Source: Haliotis asinina (Eukaryota > Mollusca > Gastropoda > Lepetellida > Haliotidae). From it: a DNA stretch of 64,000 bases. This document shows, piece by piece, positions 2,106-62,497 of this stretch. The position numbers and the translations under genes were made by a program. The notes under the pieces are model-generated. The model ran no database searches, was not told the DNA's origin, and saw nothing but the letters and a program-made list of their open reading frames with translations. Every line of letters starts with the position of its first letter. Within the stretch, counting starts at the first letter, position 1. The stretch spans positions 27,947,554-28,011,553 of the forward strand of contig NC_090282.1 of NCBI RefSeq assembly GCF_037392515.1, read 5' to 3'.

Positions 2106-3795
2106 AGGTCTGCATATAAGCTCATGCCAAAAAGTTTGGTTCAAACTTGCACAACAGTGATTTAAAGGACCAGATTTTCTGTGGAGACAAAGAGTTGAAT
2201 GGCCCCTTTCTCCTGACTTATGTGTCACTGTACCCGATGAGGACCCAGAAGCCAAGCACTCGGTAAGTTTTGTAGTAACTTGCCAATCCCAAGATGTGTT
2301 GGACAGACTGCTGAATCATTATTCAAGCTGGCTACGCCTCCGAAAGGCTGTTCCATGGATCATCTTAACTATAAGGGAGCTAGAAAGAAAGATGAAAGAA
2401 AGGAAATTGTTTTTCAAGGCCGATATTGACAGTGTTAGTAATGAGGGATGCAAAAGATGCACTTATTCGTTATGTGCAGGGCCAGCACTTCAGGAAAGAG
2501 ATTGAAGTTTTGAACAGACAAGAAAACCAGGTTAACAATAGAAGAAGGGTCAGTAAATCTTGTCCTTTGTACAAGTTAGATCCCTTCATTCACAATGGAA
2601 TCATAACGGTCGGTGGACGTCTTCAAAGAGCTGCGATTCAACATGATTCTAAACATCCAGTTGTGATACCCAAAACCTCTCCTTTGTCAAATTTGCCAAT
2701 CAAGGATGCTCACGTAGCTGTAGGTCATATGGGAAGAAATGCTATACTTGCCCAGTTGAGGAAACGCTATTGGATCTTGGGAGCTGGAGTCATCATTAAG
2801 AGACTTGTTTCCAACTGTGTCATTTGTAAGTATCAGTCATCAGCTGAACAACAAAAGATTGCAGACCTTTCTGATGACCGTCTTCAACCTGACAAACCAC
2901 CATTTTCACATGTGGGTATGGACTTTTTTTGACCTTTTTAGTTAAACAAGGTCGTGCAACAGTGAAAAGGTATGGTGTGATCTTCTCATGTTTGACCATG
3001 AGAGCAGTACACTTGGAACTAGCTTGTTCTCTTGATACTGACAGTTGCACCAATGCTATACGACGATTTATGTCAAGACGAGGTCAGCCAGGAGTTATCA
3101 AATCAGACGATGGGACCAATCTCACAAGTAGCGAACGTGAACTCAAAGAAGAAATCTTGAAATTATACCAATCCAAGCTGCACCCATCGTTGCTAGAAAG
3201 AATAATTGATTGGCATTTTAACTCTCCTGCAGCATCTCACCATGGTGGGAGTTGGGAACGTATGATTCGCACCATAAGGAAAGTTTTACATGCCGTTATC
3301 CGTGAGCAAACCATTAAACTTGACGATGAAGGTTTGAGTACTCTTTTTTGTGAAGTTGAAACTATTCTCAATGGGAGGCCTATCACTGATGTACCGTATC
3401 ATCCTCATGATCTGAACCCCCTCACACCAAATCATCTTCTGCTTCTACGTTCGGGTCAGAAAATGCCACCAGGAACTTTTTGCAAAGATGATGTTTATTC
3501 TCGCCAACGATGGAGGCAAGTACAGTATTTAGTTGATGTATTTTGGAAGCGGTGGGTAAAGGAGTACCTTGCAATGCAGCAAGAGAGACAGAAGTGGGTT
3601 GTAAAGAAGCCCAATCTTAAAGTTGGAGACATTGTTCTTCTGGTGGACAGTTCTCCTCGTAAGTCATGGTCACTGGGACGTATCACGGAGGTCATGACCA
3701 GCAAGAAGGGATTTGTACGTATTGTGCGTGTGAGGACAGCTACACCCGAGCTTGTCCGTCCTATTAACAAACTGTGCGCCATTGTGCATAGTTAA
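2106..3795 (+). mobile_element. Fossil BEL/Pao LTR retrotransposon, 3' part of pol
   Basis: The parts in order are the linker after RNase H (about 2150-2400, with the GPDFLW and LNHYSSWLRL type of signature), the zinc-binding HHCC domain of integrase (about 2700-2850), the integrase catalytic core (about 2900-3450) and the C-terminal domain ending near 3795. The linker and the H2C2-integrase arrangement are typical of BEL/Pao rather than Gypsy. Protease, reverse transcriptase and gag are absent on the left, so the copy is 5' truncated. It is broken, with a small number of breaks. The integrase core is better preserved than the neighbouring DIRS-like fossil, suggesting a somewhat younger insertion. 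Confidence 0.85.
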
Positions 3796-21926: not shown

Positions 21927-24900
21927 ATGCAGCTGAAAGATAAGGTAGTGTTCATCACTGGCGGTGCACAGGGATTCGGTAGGGGCGTGGCTGAAGCAGT
22001 ATTGAAGAAAGGTGGAAAGGTAAAGATGTCTTACGTGCAATTCATTATGAAATGCAAGCAAAGCAAACCCTTGTACATGATATGACAGAGTGAGGAATCT
22101 TCTGGAAATATCACGGCAGTCGACAGCAGAAGTGTGGACATTCATTTCACCTATATGGGGAATCAACAACGCCATGTTTATTTCTTTTTCTCGCGACAGC
22201 AGTTTGATTCTCCGTTTTTTTTAATGAGATTAAATTTGCACATGTATCCAAAACATCACATTACCTATCTGTTACCCCAAAGGTAATAAGGTATATTATC
22301 AATTATGCAGTCATCAAACCCTTTCCATACATATGAAATCCACCATATACCCCTTTACAAAAAAAAACAAGCAAGAAATTTCAAAATTAACGAAAGCAAG
22401 ATAATGTAACATGACAATATTTTCGTCATTCATCGCATTGTCGATGTATCACCCAGTCGCCCTTCTGTAGAATAAACAATATATATTTGTTCAAAAGCGT
22501 CAAAACGAGAAGGGGCATAAATATTACGTAGTCGCGTTGTATTTTTGTGACATTTGATATTTAAACCTTTGACGAAGATTCCATATACAGTAGACTCTGT
22601 CAATACCGGCACCACTCGGGAAATAAGGAACAAGGCAGTCTCAGAATGGAGTCATTTATTACACATTCAAATAATAACGAGTTTGTTCACACTGTAAAAA
22701 AGTCGCTGATCTTGCTTTGTATTTTCTGTACCGATGCCCCGAGAGCAATGTCCTCCGCTGCACTTTCCAAGTTCTGCACATGATGTAGAGGTCGTACTTC
22801 CTGGCTAGATGCGGCGTGTTTAATCTGAGTGTACATTCTAAAAACATCACTTACAGACATTTTAGCAATACTGAGTGTTACGCCACTGTACAGAGTTTCA
22901 GATATTACAGCTTGTTCAGCTTGACCTGGGCTACTCTACACATGCATGGCCCGCGAGACCATTTGGCAGAAACAGCAGGTCGAGTTAACTTCATTAAATA
23001 TGGGAGCACGGAATAATAGTAATGTTGCTGCTCGCTGCCTAAAAGCCCGTATCCGAACGTTAAATCATCTGTAGTTATTTTTTAAAGAAAGTAAGGATAT
23101 TTCGGACGTTTCTTCGACACTGAGATGTCAAACGATGACTTTGTCTCCGCTGTTCGGACATTTTGACAATCAACTGACAACTGTCTTCTACAGCGATTCA
23201 GTATCACCTTGATTCAGAGCAGTTGTCTTTTACAGATATTCTTCATCACCTTGATTCAGAGCAGTTGTCTTCTACAGAGATTCTTTATCACCTTGATTCA
23301 GAGCAGTTGTCTTCTACAGAGATTCTGTATCACACTGATTCAGAGCAATTGTCTTCTACAACGATTTCGTATCACCTTGATTCAGATCGGTTGTCTTCTA
23401 CAGCGATTCTGTATCACACTGATTCAGAGCAGTTGTTTTCTACAGCGATTCCTTATCATATTGATTCAGAGCAGTTGTCTTCTACAACGATTTCCTATCA
23501 CACTGATTCAGAGCAATTGTCTTCATCCACGATTCTGTATCACCCTGATTCAGAGCTGTGTACAATCTCACAAGAACACTGTTATATTTCACAAACATAA
23601 AGTAAATTCTGTTTGATGTCGATGGAATTGTGATCAGGAATAGAATGAAGTATAATAACACTAATCGTGATCACGTTGTAGTTTGTTTGACATTCGGAAT
23701 TCCCAGAGTGTATTTATGTTTTCAAGATAAAACTTTCTTTAGAGATTTTCTCAGATCGTCAAGAATTATATACCCATTTCCGGTCAGGTGTGTCTCGCAG
23801 ATGTCAAGAGGGATCAAGGGGTGGCAACTGCTAAGGAACTACAAACTTCCAGCGGAGCTGATAATGTCTTCTTTGTGAAGTGTGACGTGACGAATGTTGC
23901 TGAATTTGAGGGTGAGATACCAGCTATTGACACTACCATGCTTGTGTTATAATAGTTGCAGATGCTGACGACTAGTGATTCGTTTACCTCTAGTTCTGAT
24001 TTTGTAAAGTACGGCTTTAACTCAACCATTAACATCCACACGCATTAACCGTGATGCATATGTACGTACATCTATGTATTTCTTTTGTCTAGATGCTTTC
24101 AAAGCTGCCGTGTCGAAATTTGGTCATGTTGATATAATGTGCAATAATGCAGGCATCATGGATGAACGAATATGGGAAAAACAGCTGCAAATCAACTTTG
24201 TAAGTGTTTAGAATTTGTCATATTGGCATATACCATTTACCATACATCCGTTCGTATGACCAGAGAATTGCCATGGTTTATGATTTCCGTACAGACACAA
24301 TGCTCATATTAATGGCAAATCGTGGAACAGATTATCTATTGGTAACTTGGAAGTGTTTCCACCTCTCTCTCTCCCTCCCTCCCTCCCTCTCTCTCTCTCT
24401 CTCCCTCTCTCATCACTATTATTATACTATCGTCATTACTCTCTGCGTTCAGACAGCCGTTGTGCGGGGCACCATGATGGCGCTGAATCACATGAGGAGG
24501 GATAAAGGAGGCAGAGGCGGCGTCATCATCAACACGGCGTCAATTGCAGGTATGAGGTGGTCATTCTTGTCTAGTAATGTCTGTTACACTGATCTGTGTA
24601 TGGTGGAATGGTTTGAGTGAAGATGGAGGAGATGGGGAAGAGGAGTCCTCTTTATTTGACTCAGCAACCGCAAAAGCGAAAATCCTGGTCTGAACTACCC
24701 TTAGCAGCCCATGGTTGTAAAGGCGTCAAAGGTCGGATGGTCAGGTTACCTGACTCTCAGGTCGTCGTGTCCCGTTTACTCTCAATGTCAGTCTGTGTGC
24801 TCGTGTATTCTCAGATTGCAAACTTATTTATCTGGGAAATAAATACTGAACAAACAACAAAGTTGTTCTCGTCACAAGGTTGCATTTGTATTACAGGATG

Positions 24901-45470: not shown

Positions 45471-46060
45471 CAGTCTTCTGCAACGATTCTGTATCACCTT
45501 GATACAAAGCAGTTGTCTTGTACAGCGATTCTGTATCACCTTGATTCAGAGCAGTTGTCTTCTACAACGATTCTGTATCACATTGATTCAGAGCAGTTGT
45601 CTTCTACAACGATTCTGTATCACCTTGATTCAGAGCAGCTGCCTTCTACAGCGATTCTGTATCAGACTGATTGAGAGCAGTTGTCTTGTACAGCGATTCT
45701 GTATCACCCTGAATCAGGGCAGTTTTCCTCTACAACGATTTTGTGTCACCTTGATTCAGAGCAGTTGTCTTTTACAGTGATTCTGTATCACCCTGAATCA
45801 GGGCAGTTTTCCTCTACAACGATTTTGTGTCACCTTGATTCAGAGCAGTTGTCTTTTACAGTGATTCTGTATCACCCTGAATCAGGGCAGTTTTCCTCTA
45901 CAACGATTTTGTGTCACACTGATTCAGAGCAGCTGCCCTCTACAACGATTCTGTATCACCTTGATTCAGAGCAGTTGTCTTGTACAACGATTTCGTGTCA
46001 CCTTGAGTCAGCTCGGTTGTCTTCTACAATAATTCTGTATCACCCTGATTCAGAACTGTG
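45471..46060 (+). repeat. 42-bp minisatellite, about 14 copies
   Basis: Same unit as 23181-23557. Near 45700-45910 an 84-bp double unit (one ordinary copy plus a variant with CCTGAATCAGGGCAG) is repeated three times, showing recent local expansion. Confidence 0.95.
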
Positions 46061-55378: not shown

Positions 55379-58300
55379 ATGCAGCTGAAGGATAAAGTAG
55401 TGTTCATCACTGGGGGTGCACAGGGATTTGGTAAAGCCATAGCTGAGGCAGTATTGAAGAAAGGGGCAAAGGTAAAGATGTTTACCGTACAGTTCATTAT
55501 GAAATGCTACCAAAGCAAAGGAGGTTCTTCGGTATTTTTGTAGATGCATTACATCATATCGCGTTATGTAGATAGGGGTGAGTGATTAAGTAAAGACATG
55601 AATATACTCTGCAGTAAACTCTTTTGAATGTATATATCACGGCTCTCAGAAGATGCAGGAAGAATACCAACAATGTATTAAAGTTCCTTTTGGTGTTCCA
55701 TTCGGAATTCCCACATTATTTTTGTTTCCAAGATACAAAAGTTTAATGGAGGTTTTCTCAGCCCTTTACATCCATGGGTTTTGCGTTTGAACCTACCATC
55801 CGATTTTAGAAATTATTGCGAGCAGCTAGAATATAACTTTATGTAGATTATTTTCTTTCAACAAGGATCTGAAGACAAAACGCATCTTGTGTGATACTGT
55901 ATTCCCAATTCCTGGCAGGTTTGTCTCGCAGATGTCAAGAGGGATCAAGGGGAGGCAACTGCCAAGGAACTACAAACTTCCAGCGGAGCTGATAATGTCT
56001 TCTTTGTAAAATGTGACGTGACTAATGTTGCCGAGTTTGAGGGTGAGATACTATCTGTTGTCGTTACCATGCTAGTGTCAGTTGCAGATGGGACTTCTGC
56101 ATATAAATGCTTGAATCTGGAGGCTCAGGCGCTCATGCTGTTGTTTCCTTGTTTGTGGTATTAGATATTAATCAAACTGTACTCCATAACATTTCCATAA
56201 TAGCATTGCTTTGACGACAGGAGATTTTTTACCCTTAAATGTTTCATTTATATTGGTTGACTTCAATAAATACATAGGTATATGCATGATGCATATATAC
56301 GTATATCTATGTATTTCTTTTGTCTAGATGCTTTCAAAGCTGCAGTCTCGAGATTTGGTCACGTTGACGTAATGTGCAACAATGCAGGCATAGTAGATGA
56401 ACGAATATGGGAAAAAGAGCTTGAAATAAATTTCGTAAGTGTTTGAATATTTGCGTCAAGAGAGTGTACTCTAATCTAATGCCATACATCTGTTCATAAG
56501 CCCAGAGAATTGTTGTGGTTTACGGTTTCCATACAGACAAGTGATCATTCCTGAAATTTGACAGTACATAGTAAAGGATTGTTTATTGTGAACTCGAGAC
56601 TGTCACCATTGTCTCTTCCTAAGGACTTTATGGTTATACTGTCTTCATTGCTGTCCGTGTTAAGACAGCTGTTGTGCGGGGCACTATGATGGCACTGAAT
56701 CACATGAGGAAGGATAAAGGAGGTAGAGGTGGCGTCATCATCAACACGGCGTCAATGGCAGGTACGAGGTGGTCATTTTTGTCTAGTAATGTCTGTTGCA
56801 CTGATCTGTGTATGGTGGAACGGTGTGAGTGAAGATGGAGGAGATGGGGAAGAGGAGTCCTCGCAAAAACGAAAATGACATAGTCATTCTTGTCCAGAAA
56901 TATTCATTTTACGGGACCGAGATTTGTGTATGCATCGCCAGCGGATGCAGAGATTAGGTCCATCTCGTCCCCAGCCTCTGCATCCACTGGCGATTGTACT
57001 CTAAATTAGCCATTATTAGAATCAGAAATGTTCTACAAACAAAATTCTAATACAATTACTTTGAATGTTTCGAGCCTTGCGTGCCCTCTCAGGTAGATTT
57101 TTTTCTTTTGCAACACTTCAATCACCCGTGAGGCCACAACCACTAACAATTTCAGCTGTTAAAATCTTGCTTGGTTTAAAAATGCAAAAAACTAAAAAAA
57201 ATAAATGGAAATGGGGATTATAAAACAATCCTTCACTTTTTTGCAGTGAAATATCATTCCTTGTGAGTGAAACGTCAAATAAGACAATCAGGATGCGTTA
57301 TCAGGATTCTTTCAGAATCAGCTTTTTATAATTATTCATGAGTTTATCGCCAACGTCGTCGCACACTGAACTGGTCCAGAATGGTTCTGTAGAGGAACCT
57401 CTGAAGTTGAATGGGTGGTAGTTGGCATTTTGACGTCAGTGTACGATATGTTTTTGTCACTTTTAAGTTTCATTTTGTTATTCCTTTTACCACCACAGCA
57501 AAAATAAGCTGGTTTCCGGAACACTGAAACCAAGAAGAAACGCCATGGAAACCAACATTTCCAGTTGGTTTCCAGGGAGTTTCCTACAGTTTCATTGTGG
57601 TTTCCATGCAACTGAAACTGCACCATTTCAGGATGGTTTCCAGTTCGTTTCATTACCCACTCCTCCAAGCGGGATCCAGTTGGTTTCCATGTACGAGTTT
57701 ATTGTAGGTTTCAACCTGGTTTCCATGTGTGAGTTTATTGTAGGTTTCAACCTGGTTTCCATGTATGAGTTTATTGTAGGTTTCAACCTGGTTTCCATGT
57801 ATGAGTTTACTGTAGGTTTCAACCTGGTTTCCGTGTTGTAGTTTCCAACCTAGTTTAATACCTAGTTTCCATGAACTGAAACTTGCTCGTGTCGGCCCTT
57901 TACCCGGTCCTCCGGAAAACAGGTTGTCTCACATGTAGCAAATCAGGTATTTTATACAATTGCATAATGGTAAAAGGCTCCAGGATGGCAAATAACAGAA
58001 TAAAACACAAATTCATTAAAAGTTTATTTATATTCAACAATTTGTTTGTACACAAATAATATTCGGAATATTCAAGTTAGTAAATGAAACAAAAGCAAGG
58101 GAATAATTAGCAGTGAGTACAGAATATTTTGCTTGAACACATCAATGTAGATCAGCCCATATCACTTGGCTTCCTAGTTTGAAAAATGTTAGCTCATTCC
58201 CCAAGAGAGGAAGAACTGTGTGCTTCTTCTCCTCCGGCCAATCAATCGTTTCACAGCCTTCCTGCTTTCCAGCTTCTGAAATTTGAAAAACAAACTATCA

Positions 58301-61300
58301 GTACAAACAATGATTCGTCAACGATATCCATGGCTAGAGAAAAGAAAACTGTCAAACATTGCTTGAGGTGAAATACACTGAACCCCATGTCCAAAAAGCG
58401 AAGAGCTCAAAAAGTATAAAATGAGCATTTGGCATCAAAAGTTTCAATCCCAGAACAGCCTATTGATATATGAGAGTGCAGAGACATGAAAAATTCTCCT
58501 TTGAAAGCCATAATTTATTTTCTGAATGTTACTTACAATGCACATTAGGTGTATAGAACTAGGACTTATCCGTTATTGTGAAAAGACATATTTTCTTAAC
58601 CAATAATATGCAGTCATTCAGGCAGACAAGCTATGAATATGGGGTCACAAGCATACACTGCAACATAATATGTGCTATTTAAAACTTTTTAAGCTGTAAC
58701 TTTCAAAGGATAAATTGCACTTTTTAAACAGTGTTCATTTTGAAATTCCTTGAATGTACATAGAAAGAATCCAAATTAACTTGATATTTTAAAGGATTCC
58801 TTTAAATTTTTAATCTGTGCAAGATGTACAATGACTAGAATACGTTTACTTACTCTGAACTTTTTGCCGTTCTTTGCGTACAAGCCGTGGGCCTCTGCTT
58901 TCCCCACACCTTCTTAAGAGATCCATCTTGTTCATCCAAACCCATCTGAAAAGACACATGTGCATGATGCATAACTATAAGTGAAACATGTTTCCAGTTG
59001 GAGGTTACAACAATAGTGACTGTGCCATTCATTTTTACTGATTCCTAGGATTTACATTATTTGATTATGTTGTATGTACATTATGTACTGGACGGTTCAG
59101 GTTATACATACCTTTTGTATGTCAAAATGAGTTGGTCCTGGCTGCCTTCTTCAGAATTTCCAACACTGCCCTCCTTTAAGCTGGAAACGTAGAAATGCAT
59201 CGATTAAAAAACAGGAACTTGTCATATTGCACTCTTGATAACAATAAAGTGTCGAATAAAAAGAATAAATATCAATTTGCAAAGTGTAGATTATGCTAGA
59301 TGAAAAGAATCCAGGTCAACAAATTCATATACTATTTTGGGTTGGCAATCCATCATTGTATACCCATATATTCTTTATGTCAAAAACTCTTCGCAACCTT
59401 TTCTGTGGGCCTAACACAATCTACAATTCTTCATTCAGGGTTCGTTAAATCTTGATATGATAAGCATAACACTACTTACATCAGATGGCAAACCTAAATT
59501 ATCTCATAAATCAATGATATAAACATATTCAACATTAGTTTGAAAACATTGTGAAATTTCATTTTTGAAATTTCACTCAAACAATGCACCAAATCTGGTC
59601 TGAGAATCACTAACCTATAAATGCAAAATGACACTCTATCCCCAACTACATTGTTTTCAAAGGTGCAAATATCAAAAGCAATATGAAAAGGATTTCTTAA
59701 ATAAATATTCGTATTTATAAATACGTTTGAAGTTACTGTGAGTCGTAACAAGCACATTAGCAAGAATAGACTAGAGATATTTGTGATTTATTTTCTTCTT
59801 GCAACGATAATTTTTCATTCATTAACACAATGAACCATTTTAATCGTGTGTGAGCTGATCCAAATCACAGTAATATTGAGTTCTTGAATCAACTGTGTGA
59901 AGGAAGCCATCTCTCTTGCTAAGAATTCAACACGCATTTGTTTACAGAGGTTCATCAAGTCTAAACTTTCATATGTATTGTGGTAGTTACTTATTTACGT
60001 TAAACATTACGAATAACATGAGCTATTGCTTATTTCAAGAAAATAACACTGTACCTGACCAGATCGTGGAATGTTCCTTTTCTCCCGCTGCGATCGACGA
60101 CTGCTGCTGTTCTCAATTTTTCATGTAACCGAATCTCCAAAGCTTCTATTGTAAATCTCATTGCCAGTCTCTTGAATCAGATAACACGGGCAAACGTAGG
60201 AATACTGCATTGTGTTGACTTCCTTGTTGTCGTTACTGGACATACCGGTTGAGAACTGCTTTCAAAATAGTCGTCTCAAAACAACTTGGGATCAAGTGAC
60301 AAAATGGCGGCAAGTGTGCGTTGGGGCATTGTGGGTAATAACAAATACCTGATCCTTTTTCGATTGGCAGGCATGAAATCCTTCTCTGACCCAATTACGA
60401 TGTGATTTTAAGACAAAGACTGAAAACGACCACTTCAGTACATTAAACTGTTGCTTTTATAAAATGTCACGACTTCGCGTGCCCATGGATTACCGAGTCA
60501 TTACTTCCGGTTTCGTCTGTCAACACCTGACTCAGGTAAGTTCCATTGTTTTTACAGCTAGCTAATTTTGATAATAGAACCTGTTAAGTGGGGACTGCCC
60601 CAATGAAGCCGACACACGAACCCCGACACACTAATGACCTGACACTGATTAATTGTCAAGTATTTGAACTCAGTGTCAAAGTATTACAACTATAAATGCT
60701 TTTAATGCTAAACTTCACGCACTGCCTCAGTTTATTGTATAATTCACGTATATTCTGGATATTAAGAAATACCATCATGTAAGTACCGAACTGACAATTG
60801 TTTTAATGACTTATACTAATCTTCCTAAATGCTTATACTCTTTCACATTCCTAGGAGTTGGCAGTCTATAGCCTGTTTTTTATATATTGCATCATTTACC
60901 TTTTAATTAATAATATATATCTGAACTACAGCTATTGCTAAAGTGGTTTTAATTTTACTTATTTTTATACAATATATTTACTGAAAGGAATACAAGCCCG
61001 TACACAACTCAATGATCCAATAAATTATAATTAATATATAATAAAAGTTTAAGCAATGTTCCTATGCAGAGTCAACTCACCTTTTATTCTTGTATATAGA
61101 TATCAGAGTTTAATTATTTCTTTTCAGATAAAGAAAGCGTCTGATCCTTAATTGGAGAAAGCAGACAACCGAAACCTGGACTTGCCTCATTCATCCCAAT
61201 CTAGAGAAACCAGACTAAGTGTGCCTCGCGCACATAGCTGGACAAAGGCCATTTATAGCCATTCGTCCTTTCACCATTTATATGTTTAGTACGGTTATTG

Positions 61301-62497
61301 TGAAGTTTGTGTGCATGGTAGTTGGAATATGATGCTTCATTACATTACGAATAAACAAGAATGTGAAGGAACAAAGTGTATCGTTTGTTCTTGTATCATT
61401 AGTTTGAAGCCACATTTAATATTGTGATATCCACAGAATGATGCGTCAACAATTTACTTTTGTTGTCAGGAATGGAAACCAACACATGACCATAGCTTCG
61501 TGTCAGTTTCCATCACCAGAGCTTAGAGTATCCATTATGGATTCTATTTGGAAACTAGGTCACCCAGTTTCACTGAATGGATACCAACTGGATGTCAGGA
61601 TGACAACCCATTTTATGTTACTTAGTTCAAAACAGCCCAATGGAAACCAACATGAAACCACATTTTCTGCTTTTATGTTGGTTTCCATTTAGTGAGATGT
61701 GAGAATTGCAAATTCCAGATATGGAAACCAACAAGAAACCCCCGAACTTAGTTTCATTTTGGTTTCCATTTACAGAATTCCACAATCACAGATTCCAAAA
61801 TGGAATCTAGTTGGAAACTCAGTTAGTGAGTTTCAGGGAATGGAAACCAACTGGATTCCGCAATTACCCACATTACGGATGGTTTCCAGAAACCTGGAAA
61901 CCAAGTCATTTTTGCAGTGCACACATGGACTTTAAGGCTTAACCTTCTTTCGCTCTTTATTTAGCTTTGCTACCTACATACTGGTTCCCTGTTTATGGAG
62001 CCAGTAAAAGCGCTGTTTATCACTTCACGTCGAGTTGGGCAGTAAGTGATTTTCTAATCTGCATAATGTGTTTTAATCTCTAATGTTCATCATCAATAGG
62101 AACATCGACTTGTATGGACAGAATGTGTCTACTGTTAGAATGAATAACACGTTCTCTCACCTGGTGCTGATTAAACCAATTGAGCAGGTAAATGCAATAC
62201 GACGTAAATGTATGGCGGGTAATGTGTAACAGAAACTCTTTAGTCTCGATTATTTGATCAGTCCTTCACGACACTTATGACTTCTGAGCTGTGGTTGAAA
62301 TACTACATATGAGAATTAAAATACTTGTTCACTCAGTGCCTGATACCATTGCCTCTTCAGCAAAACCCTGACATGAAAGCTGCTGAAGTTCGACTGGTCA
62401 GCATCTGCCCCACGGGTGCTAGGACGGCTTTTTTTGACATGGATGACGATCAGATCATGCAACGCGAACACTTCATAGCACAAACTGTGTTCTGCAC
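55379..62497 (+). CDS. HPGD-like: 15-hydroxyprostaglandin dehydrogenase-like SDR, copy E (3' end outside window)
   Basis: Coding exons in view: 55379-55471, 55919-56042, 56328-56434, 56665-56761, 61965-62041, 62361-62497; all open with canonical junctions and the same phases as A-D. Asn107, Ser138, Tyr151 and Lys155 are kept. The nucleotide loop is TGGAQGFGKA, residue 148 is Phe as in B, and the NTASMAG/ALLPTYW segment is unique. The lid exon is three residues shorter than in B's relatives (137 nt against 143 in A and 146 in B). The intron between 56761 and 61965 holds the CACTA-like element. A partial last exon at 63706 looks like a decoy. The foldback element that sits 61 bp before the last exon in A and C ends at 63947, so the real last exon probably starts just past the right edge. 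Confidence 0.85.
58142..60161 (-). CDS. Unrecognised four-exon gene carried inside the CACTA-like element
   Basis: Exons, in transcript order: 60161-60055, 59180-59112, 58945-58854, 58275-58142. Donors are AG|GTACAG, AG|GTATGT and A|GTAAGT; acceptors are all CAG. Lengths 107, 69, 92 and 134 sum to 402 nt, so the frame stays open to a TGA: 133 residues. An in-frame TGA 18 nt upstream supports the ATG. The protein starts MRFTIEALEIRLHEKLRTAA, has a basic middle (RLVRKERQKVQ) and no signal peptide or membrane segment. AATAAA on this strand at 58028-58023 could be its polyadenylation signal. I do not recognise the family. It may be a captured host gene fragment or an accessory gene of the element. 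The exon model is inferred from splice sites and phase only. Confidence 0.5.
60301..60337. promoter_or_regulatory. Putative bidirectional promoter with YY1- and ZNF143-like sites
   Basis: AAAATGGCGGC (60301-60311) matches the YY1 core. The minus strand of 60323-60337 reads TACCCACAATGCCCC, close to the ZNF143/Staf motif. Both are typical of housekeeping promoters. The site lies between the minus-strand gene (ATG at 60161) and a possible plus-strand transcript (ATG at 60464). Confidence 0.4.
60464..61151 (+). CDS. Possible two-exon micro-ORF inside the CACTA-like element
   Basis: 60464-60535 (24 codons, ending CTCAG|GTAAGT) could splice to 61128-61151 (TTTTCAG|ATAAAG), giving 31 residues that start MSRLRVPMDYRVITSG. 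AATAAA near 61351 could end the transcript. The donor and acceptor are good, but such a short ORF may be chance or a non-coding transcript. Confidence 0.25.

Follow-up and report, generated by a model that had tools for sequence, protein, structure and literature searches.

Within the window, the 64-kb stretch of the Haliotis asinina genome that we analyzed (C3:27947554-28011553), a transposon encloses what looks like a spliced gene of four exons, and the question that this locus raises is whether that gene came from the host or from the transposon. The earlier note, made from the letters alone, had favored a CACTA-like element that carried a captured, non-transposase gene. We find it very likely that the locus is instead a non-autonomous CACTA (En/Spm) element that has kept the decayed remnant of the second gene (ORF2) of a two-gene ancestor, and not a captured host gene.

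The element and its repeat family

The element spans 57494..61919 (4426 bp) and is bounded by short inverted ends of the form CAC[A/T]GCAAAAAT, with the left terminal inverted repeat CACAGCAAAAAT at 57494..57505 on the plus strand and the right one, CACTGCAAAAAT, at 61908..61919 on the minus strand. This copy reads CACAG at its left end and CACTG at its right, and it is flanked on both sides by the 3-bp target-site duplication CAC (57491..57493 and 61920..61922). All 18 of the TGGTTTCC/GGAAACCA sites in the 64-kb window fall inside the element. Ten of them are near the left end (57510..57844, a region that includes a 36-bp tandem array of the motif at 57681-57844), and eight are near the right end (61474..61903), where both orientations are present. 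The count of TGGTTTCC sites by chance is 2.2 +/- 1.5 per window, and 18 was reached in none of 100 shuffles. These subterminal repeats would likely be protein-binding sites.

We searched the whole genome assembly (1.14 Gb in 159 contigs) for other copies. The first 201 bp of the left end gave 305 first-look candidates, and the 40 that were scored were all 98-100% identical, so that the ends do recur in the genome, as the earlier note's reading implied. Twenty further places were selected by the left end and fetched; all 20 opened with that left end, and the 12-bp terminal repeat by which they had been chosen was identical in every one. The right end was found in 19 of the 20, giving element lengths of 1.8-6.2 kb, and it read CACTG in 10 copies and CACTA (CACTAC) in 9. 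The 3-bp duplication matched in 15 of these 19 copies and was mismatched in L009, L012 and the near-duplicates L027 and L028. The interior largely recurred in 18 of the 20 places (L027 and L028 again counting as near-duplicates), the exceptions being L025, a deletion copy of 1.77 kb, and L024, which is interrupted by frames that are LINE-like by eye. Seven of the copies read (L009-L015) belong to the window element's own subfamily and were 99.1-99.8% identical to it, and the interior stretch 60040-60560 gave 185 candidates in the genome, with the 40 places scored at 95-100% identity.

Because the ends and the interior recur as a repeat family, the element is not a chance pattern, and because the 40 scored left ends are 98-100% identical and the 3-bp duplication is matched in 15 of 19 copies, we consider this a young CACTA family, present in high copy number. 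Some copies also contain retroelement-like frames, recognized by eye: a Penelope-like GIY-YIG frame in L019 and a LINE-like reverse transcriptase in L024.

We looked for a transposase inside the window element in three ways. None of the 13 Transposase_21 matches listed genome-wide lies within it, nor does any of the 28 listed matches to the transposase of L043, a relative described below. Inspection by eye of the 25 longest frames, in 18 measured copies, revealed no transposase, though three interior frames of 117-155 aa received no assignment. With no intact transposase inside, the window element is not autonomous and has lost its own transposase.

Transposase-bearing relatives and the origin of the inner gene

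The gene model lies on the minus strand and consists of exon 1 (60055..60161), exon 2 (59112..59180), exon 3 (58854..58945) and exon 4 (58142..58275, encoding TIDWPEEKKHTVLPLLGNELT and including the stop). The exons have GT-AG borders and join into a frame of 133 aa, with an in-frame TGA upstream of exon 1 at 60179 and an AATAAA signal 3' of exon 4 at 58023..58028 on the same strand. All of these features, which the earlier note had described, hold as sequence, with the reservation that the frame is open in few copies (see below). The note had also left the protein without an assignment, and our searches of Pfam and PDB with the 133-aa protein returned no match.

A Transposase_21 profile search of the genome gave 13 matches at E values up to 1, six of them above the cut-off. 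Ten of the 13 were read as loci (L037-L046), in which we looked for TGGTTTCC and for sites resembling terminal inverted repeats. L043 had four TGGTTTCC motifs, L040-L042 had one each, and the other loci had none. Together with its neighboring sequence, L043 forms an element of 3674 bp; the ends are 78% and 90% identical to those of the window element, with CACTA at both sides and an imperfect target duplication (TTG/TTA). Its Transposase_21 frame scored 25.9 bits (E 6.5e-6), which is below the Pfam cut-off of 28.6. Inside the ends of L043, and divergent from the transposase, lies a frame with TIDWPEKKKEKVLPLLRKELT that corresponds to exon 4; when exon 4 was compared with L043 alone, it matched this second gene with an E value of 1e-7. 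The L043 second-gene peptide itself had nothing above cut-off in Pfam.

A second relative, L044, was analyzed in the interior of its locus. Its transposase is broken, and in the two longest pieces it is 76% and 90% identical to that of L043. L044 carries exon 2 within a stretch 73% identical to the window, with both splice sites at the same places, and it carries exon 3 with both splice sites plus 10 bp that are absent from the window; the exon-3 alignment scored 87, compared with at most 37 in 100 letter shuffles. A match to exon 4 lies 0.9 kb further on, which places exons 2 and 3 between the transposase and the exon-4 match. The open frame of exon 2 in L044 does not join the frame of the exon-3 peptide RVWTNKRDDL, and in L022 the frame of this peptide contains stops, so that an exon may be missing or the copies may have decayed. 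A close relative of RVWTNKRDDL is present in L049, the sister family considered below.

Positions 61162..61233 of the window, on the plus strand, are 81-82% identical to a stretch adjoining the transposase frames in both L043 and L044, and represent a remnant of the 3' part of a transposase gene. The other eight Transposase_21 loci had no match to the window element at the DNA level, and no intact transposase with window-type ends was seen among the loci read. A plus-strand, exon-like frame at 60464-60535 was tried as a first exon of the transposase; it had no match at the transposase loci and is speculation. At C11:224451-225137 and at C1:58320787-58321473 there is an open frame of 814 aa that shares 27% identity with the transposase of L043, possibly an intact CACTA-type transposase of another family.

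The arrangement seen in L043 recurs elsewhere in the genome. The L043 transposase query listed 28 matches at 18 places, and the exon-4 query listed 150 matches; first-look candidates numbered 35 for the transposase and 468 for exon 4, rough counts given that the queries differ in length. At 5 of the 18 transposase places (on C11, C1, C13, C5 and C4) a listed exon-4 match lies 0.2-5.2 kb from the transposase (3.65 kb on C13, at 328177-331828), and in all five pairs the two are divergent. The 150 listed exon-4 matches included none at the remaining 13 places. Because exons 2, 3 and 4 recur divergently beside a tnp2 transposase in the relatives, the gene is, very probably, the element's own second gene. 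The relatives document a CACTA lineage with two divergent genes, in which pieces of the second gene are more numerous than the transposase.

The first alternative is that the element captured a four-exon host gene, which was then amplified with it, as in a Pack-CACTA. The interior does resemble an ordinary spliced gene, and for exon 1 and the region upstream of it no counterpart was seen in those copies read that bear a transposase: comparison of exon 1 with the transposase loci gave no convincing match, neither exon 1 nor the upstream region was found beside a transposase when the 150 scored exon-1 places were set against the 28 transposase matches, and the nearest of those places is 77 kb from a listed transposase match. 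Capture nevertheless appears improbable. An inner gene taken from the host should be missing from transposase-bearing relatives, but exon 4 sits within the ends of L043, exons 2 and 3 lie in L044 with the transposase on one side and the exon-4 match on the other, and a sister family with a nearly identical end also has a relative of exon 4. The exon-1 search itself gave 169 first-look candidates in the genome, of which 150 were scored; most had an identity of 85-100%, as members of a single repeat family would, and a few had 68-80% (C3:2644093, C1:70091088, C1:70494324 and C11:19347933).

The earlier note's proposal of a captured gene is therefore not upheld for exons 2-4, which are found beside the transposase of relatives, whereas exon 1 by itself might still have had a host parent. 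The search for the gene elsewhere that the note had suggested found exons 2-4 in transposon relatives, and exon 1 mostly in the one-repeat-family pattern. The claim of gene capture was a plausible one, and its correction carries a lesson for similar cases, namely to look first for the inner gene in relatives that still have a transposase.

We propose that the ancestor of this decayed two-gene element had two divergent genes, a tnp2 (Transposase_21) gene pointing to the right end and, pointing to the left end, a small second gene of several exons, to which exon 1 would also have belonged. From its position, the stretch 60180..60460 is the probable common upstream region of the second gene and the lost transposase gene, and may have held a shared promoter. 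The body of the transposase would have been lost, leaving both ends with their subterminal repeats, the second gene and a fragment from the 3' part of the transposase gene. The shortened element would then have amplified recently, presumably mobilized in trans by the transposase of rarer copies. In this amplified family the second gene would have been drifting, and the 133-residue reading would be one form of the ORF2 protein that has survived with part of its frame changed.

State of the second gene and the sister family

We assessed the condition of the second gene in an alignment of 18 rows that included the window copy and left out L024 (no right end), L025 (the 1.77-kb deletion copy) and L028 (the near-duplicate of L027). 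Read with the window's exon borders, the 133-aa frame was open in 4 of the 18 copies, and the remainder had stops, a 5-bp deletion or further indels. At the exon-3 acceptor, 10 bp were absent from 8 of the 18 copies (the window and L009-L015) and present in 9, as they are in L044, and exon 3 was absent from one copy; this deletion shapes the frame seen in the window. Across the four exons we counted 52 nonsynonymous changes and 11 synonymous ones, in agreement with the proportion expected in the absence of selection (75.7%, p = 0.24). The variability of the exons was about that of most of the element, and only the middle of intron 1 was clearly higher. There (59220-59820), differences between copies were about twice those of the rest of the element, as if this segment had a separate history.

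These values bear on a further alternative, that the family maintains the 133-residue product, or a longer one, as a functional protein, such as a trans-acting TnpA-like factor or a repressor. Of the 18 aligned copies, 16 retained all three splice-site pairs, the exon-1 frame was stop-free by eye in about 130 of the 150 scored places, and in the sister family the presumed exon 1 was stop-free in 148 of 150 places. We consider this alternative about as improbable as capture, given that the changes fit no selection, the frame is intact in only 4 of 18 copies and the exons vary about as much as most of the element. The second gene, to judge from its sequence, no longer appears to be maintained as a 133-aa protein.

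Comparison between families gave lower ratios. For exon 4, the 87 codons compared between L043 and L049 gave a pS of 0.78 and a pN of 0.33, and a comparison of the window family with L043, over only 21 codons, gave a dN/dS of approximately 0.27-0.30; low values are favored in such comparisons because the stretches were picked for matching as protein. The likeliest reading is that the ancestral second-gene protein was formerly kept and is now drifting in the amplified family that lacks the transposase.

The sister family, represented by L049, has the end CACAGCAAAAATAACCTGGTTTCC, which differs by one base from the window's end in these 24, and it too has the TGGTTTCC motif at 36-bp spacing. Its presumed exon 1 lies at 967-1071, and an open relative of exon 4 lies about 2.2 kb on, at 3189-3510. 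The presumed exon 1 gave 201 candidates, and the 150 places scored were 86-100% identical. It had no detectable similarity to exon 1 of the window, and a search of PDB with the L049 exon-4 peptide gave a best E value of only 0.74. On these sequences, the L049 family is a better candidate than the window copy for a working second protein.

CACTA elements that carry the second gene without the transposase would have amplified far beyond the transposase-bearing copies. Because the presumed exon 1 of the L049 family is open in nearly all scored places, keeping the second gene may itself aid amplification, a suggestion that we regard as rather unlikely. The second protein might in that case be a TnpA-like factor that binds the TGGTTTCC arrays, acting in cis-preference or as a competitor, and a TnpA-like role may also have been the ancestral one. 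Passages of PMC4158355 describe ORF2 as being of unknown function, and the sister family, with its largely open second gene, offers a means of testing its role.

Superfamily, known systems and surroundings

The earlier assignment to the CACTA group stands, and is strengthened by the repeat family and by the L043 relative. Terminal inverted repeats that are CACTA or close variants are present in the window element and in L043, the target-site duplication is of 3 bp in the window (CAC/CAC) and in 15 of 19 copies, and the 18 TGGTTTCC sites supply many subterminal repeats at both ends. Transposase_21, which is expected in full elements, is represented by the L043 match below the Pfam cut-off, and an ORF2 adjoins the transposase at the 5 divergent places out of 18. 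Placement in another superfamily with CAC ends (Chapaev, Mirage or Transib) is extremely unlikely: the left end does read CACAG, and CACTG is common to Chapaev ends, but Chapaev and Mirage make 4-bp or 2-bp target duplications whereas the 3-bp length counted here matched in 15 of 19 copies, right ends are CACTAC in 9 of 19 copies, L043 has CACTA at both ends, and this relative with similar ends encodes Transposase_21.

Among known systems, the two-gene CACTA/En-Spm elements (maize tnpD and tnpA) have the same end type, 3-bp duplication and subterminal repeats, and their tnp2 transposase and second gene are matched in the relatives, while the window copy is without the transposase. Deletion derivatives of the dSpm type keep the ends and subterminal repeats, lose the transposase and exceed the transposase-bearing copies in number. 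The window family shares these features, but most of the copies read retain a multi-exon remnant of the second gene. Pack-TYPE and Pack-CACTA elements are likewise non-autonomous with a spliced non-transposase gene inside; in a Pack-CACTA, however, the inner gene is made of host pieces, whereas exons 2-4 here trace to the transposon.

In the passages of PMC4158355 on CACTA elements, two open reading frames, a transposase and ORF2, are given together with a 3-bp target-site duplication. The corresponding passages of PMC1636069 derive TnpA and TnpD of maize Spm from one transcription unit, unlike the divergent gene pair in the relatives of the window element. The same passages report that SmTRC1 and the animal TRC/CACTA elements encode Transposase_21 and, besides it, a short protein that does not contain this domain, much as the window's relatives have a second protein. 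The ends of SmTRC1 begin with CCC and its duplications are of 2 bp (PMC1636069), in contrast to the CAC ends and 3-bp duplications of the window family. Titles and abstract openings in the literature that we surveyed named no such CACTA family in a mollusc.

The rest of the window contains several features of separate interest. A tandem duplication of some 22 kb occupies 5700-29100 and 29700-51000, with approximately 87-94% identity in the main aligned pieces. Its genes resemble short-chain dehydrogenases (adh_short, below cut-off), perhaps of the 15-hydroxyprostaglandin dehydrogenase kind. The transposon sits in an apparent intron of a further copy of these dehydrogenase-like genes; when we looked in the tandem paralogs of these genes for a site without the element, no alignable counterpart of the element's left flank was found within the window. 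Both duplicate halves contain a 42-bp minisatellite, with 8.9 copies at 23182-23556 and 13.9 copies at 45473-46054. Frames with Integrase_H2C2 and DUF5641 domains were found at 2396-3795, presumably the domains of a BEL/Pao retrotransposon. A tyrosine recombinase frame (Phage_integrase, E 6.9e-7) lies at 989-1687, and we suppose that it may belong to a DIRS or Crypton element.
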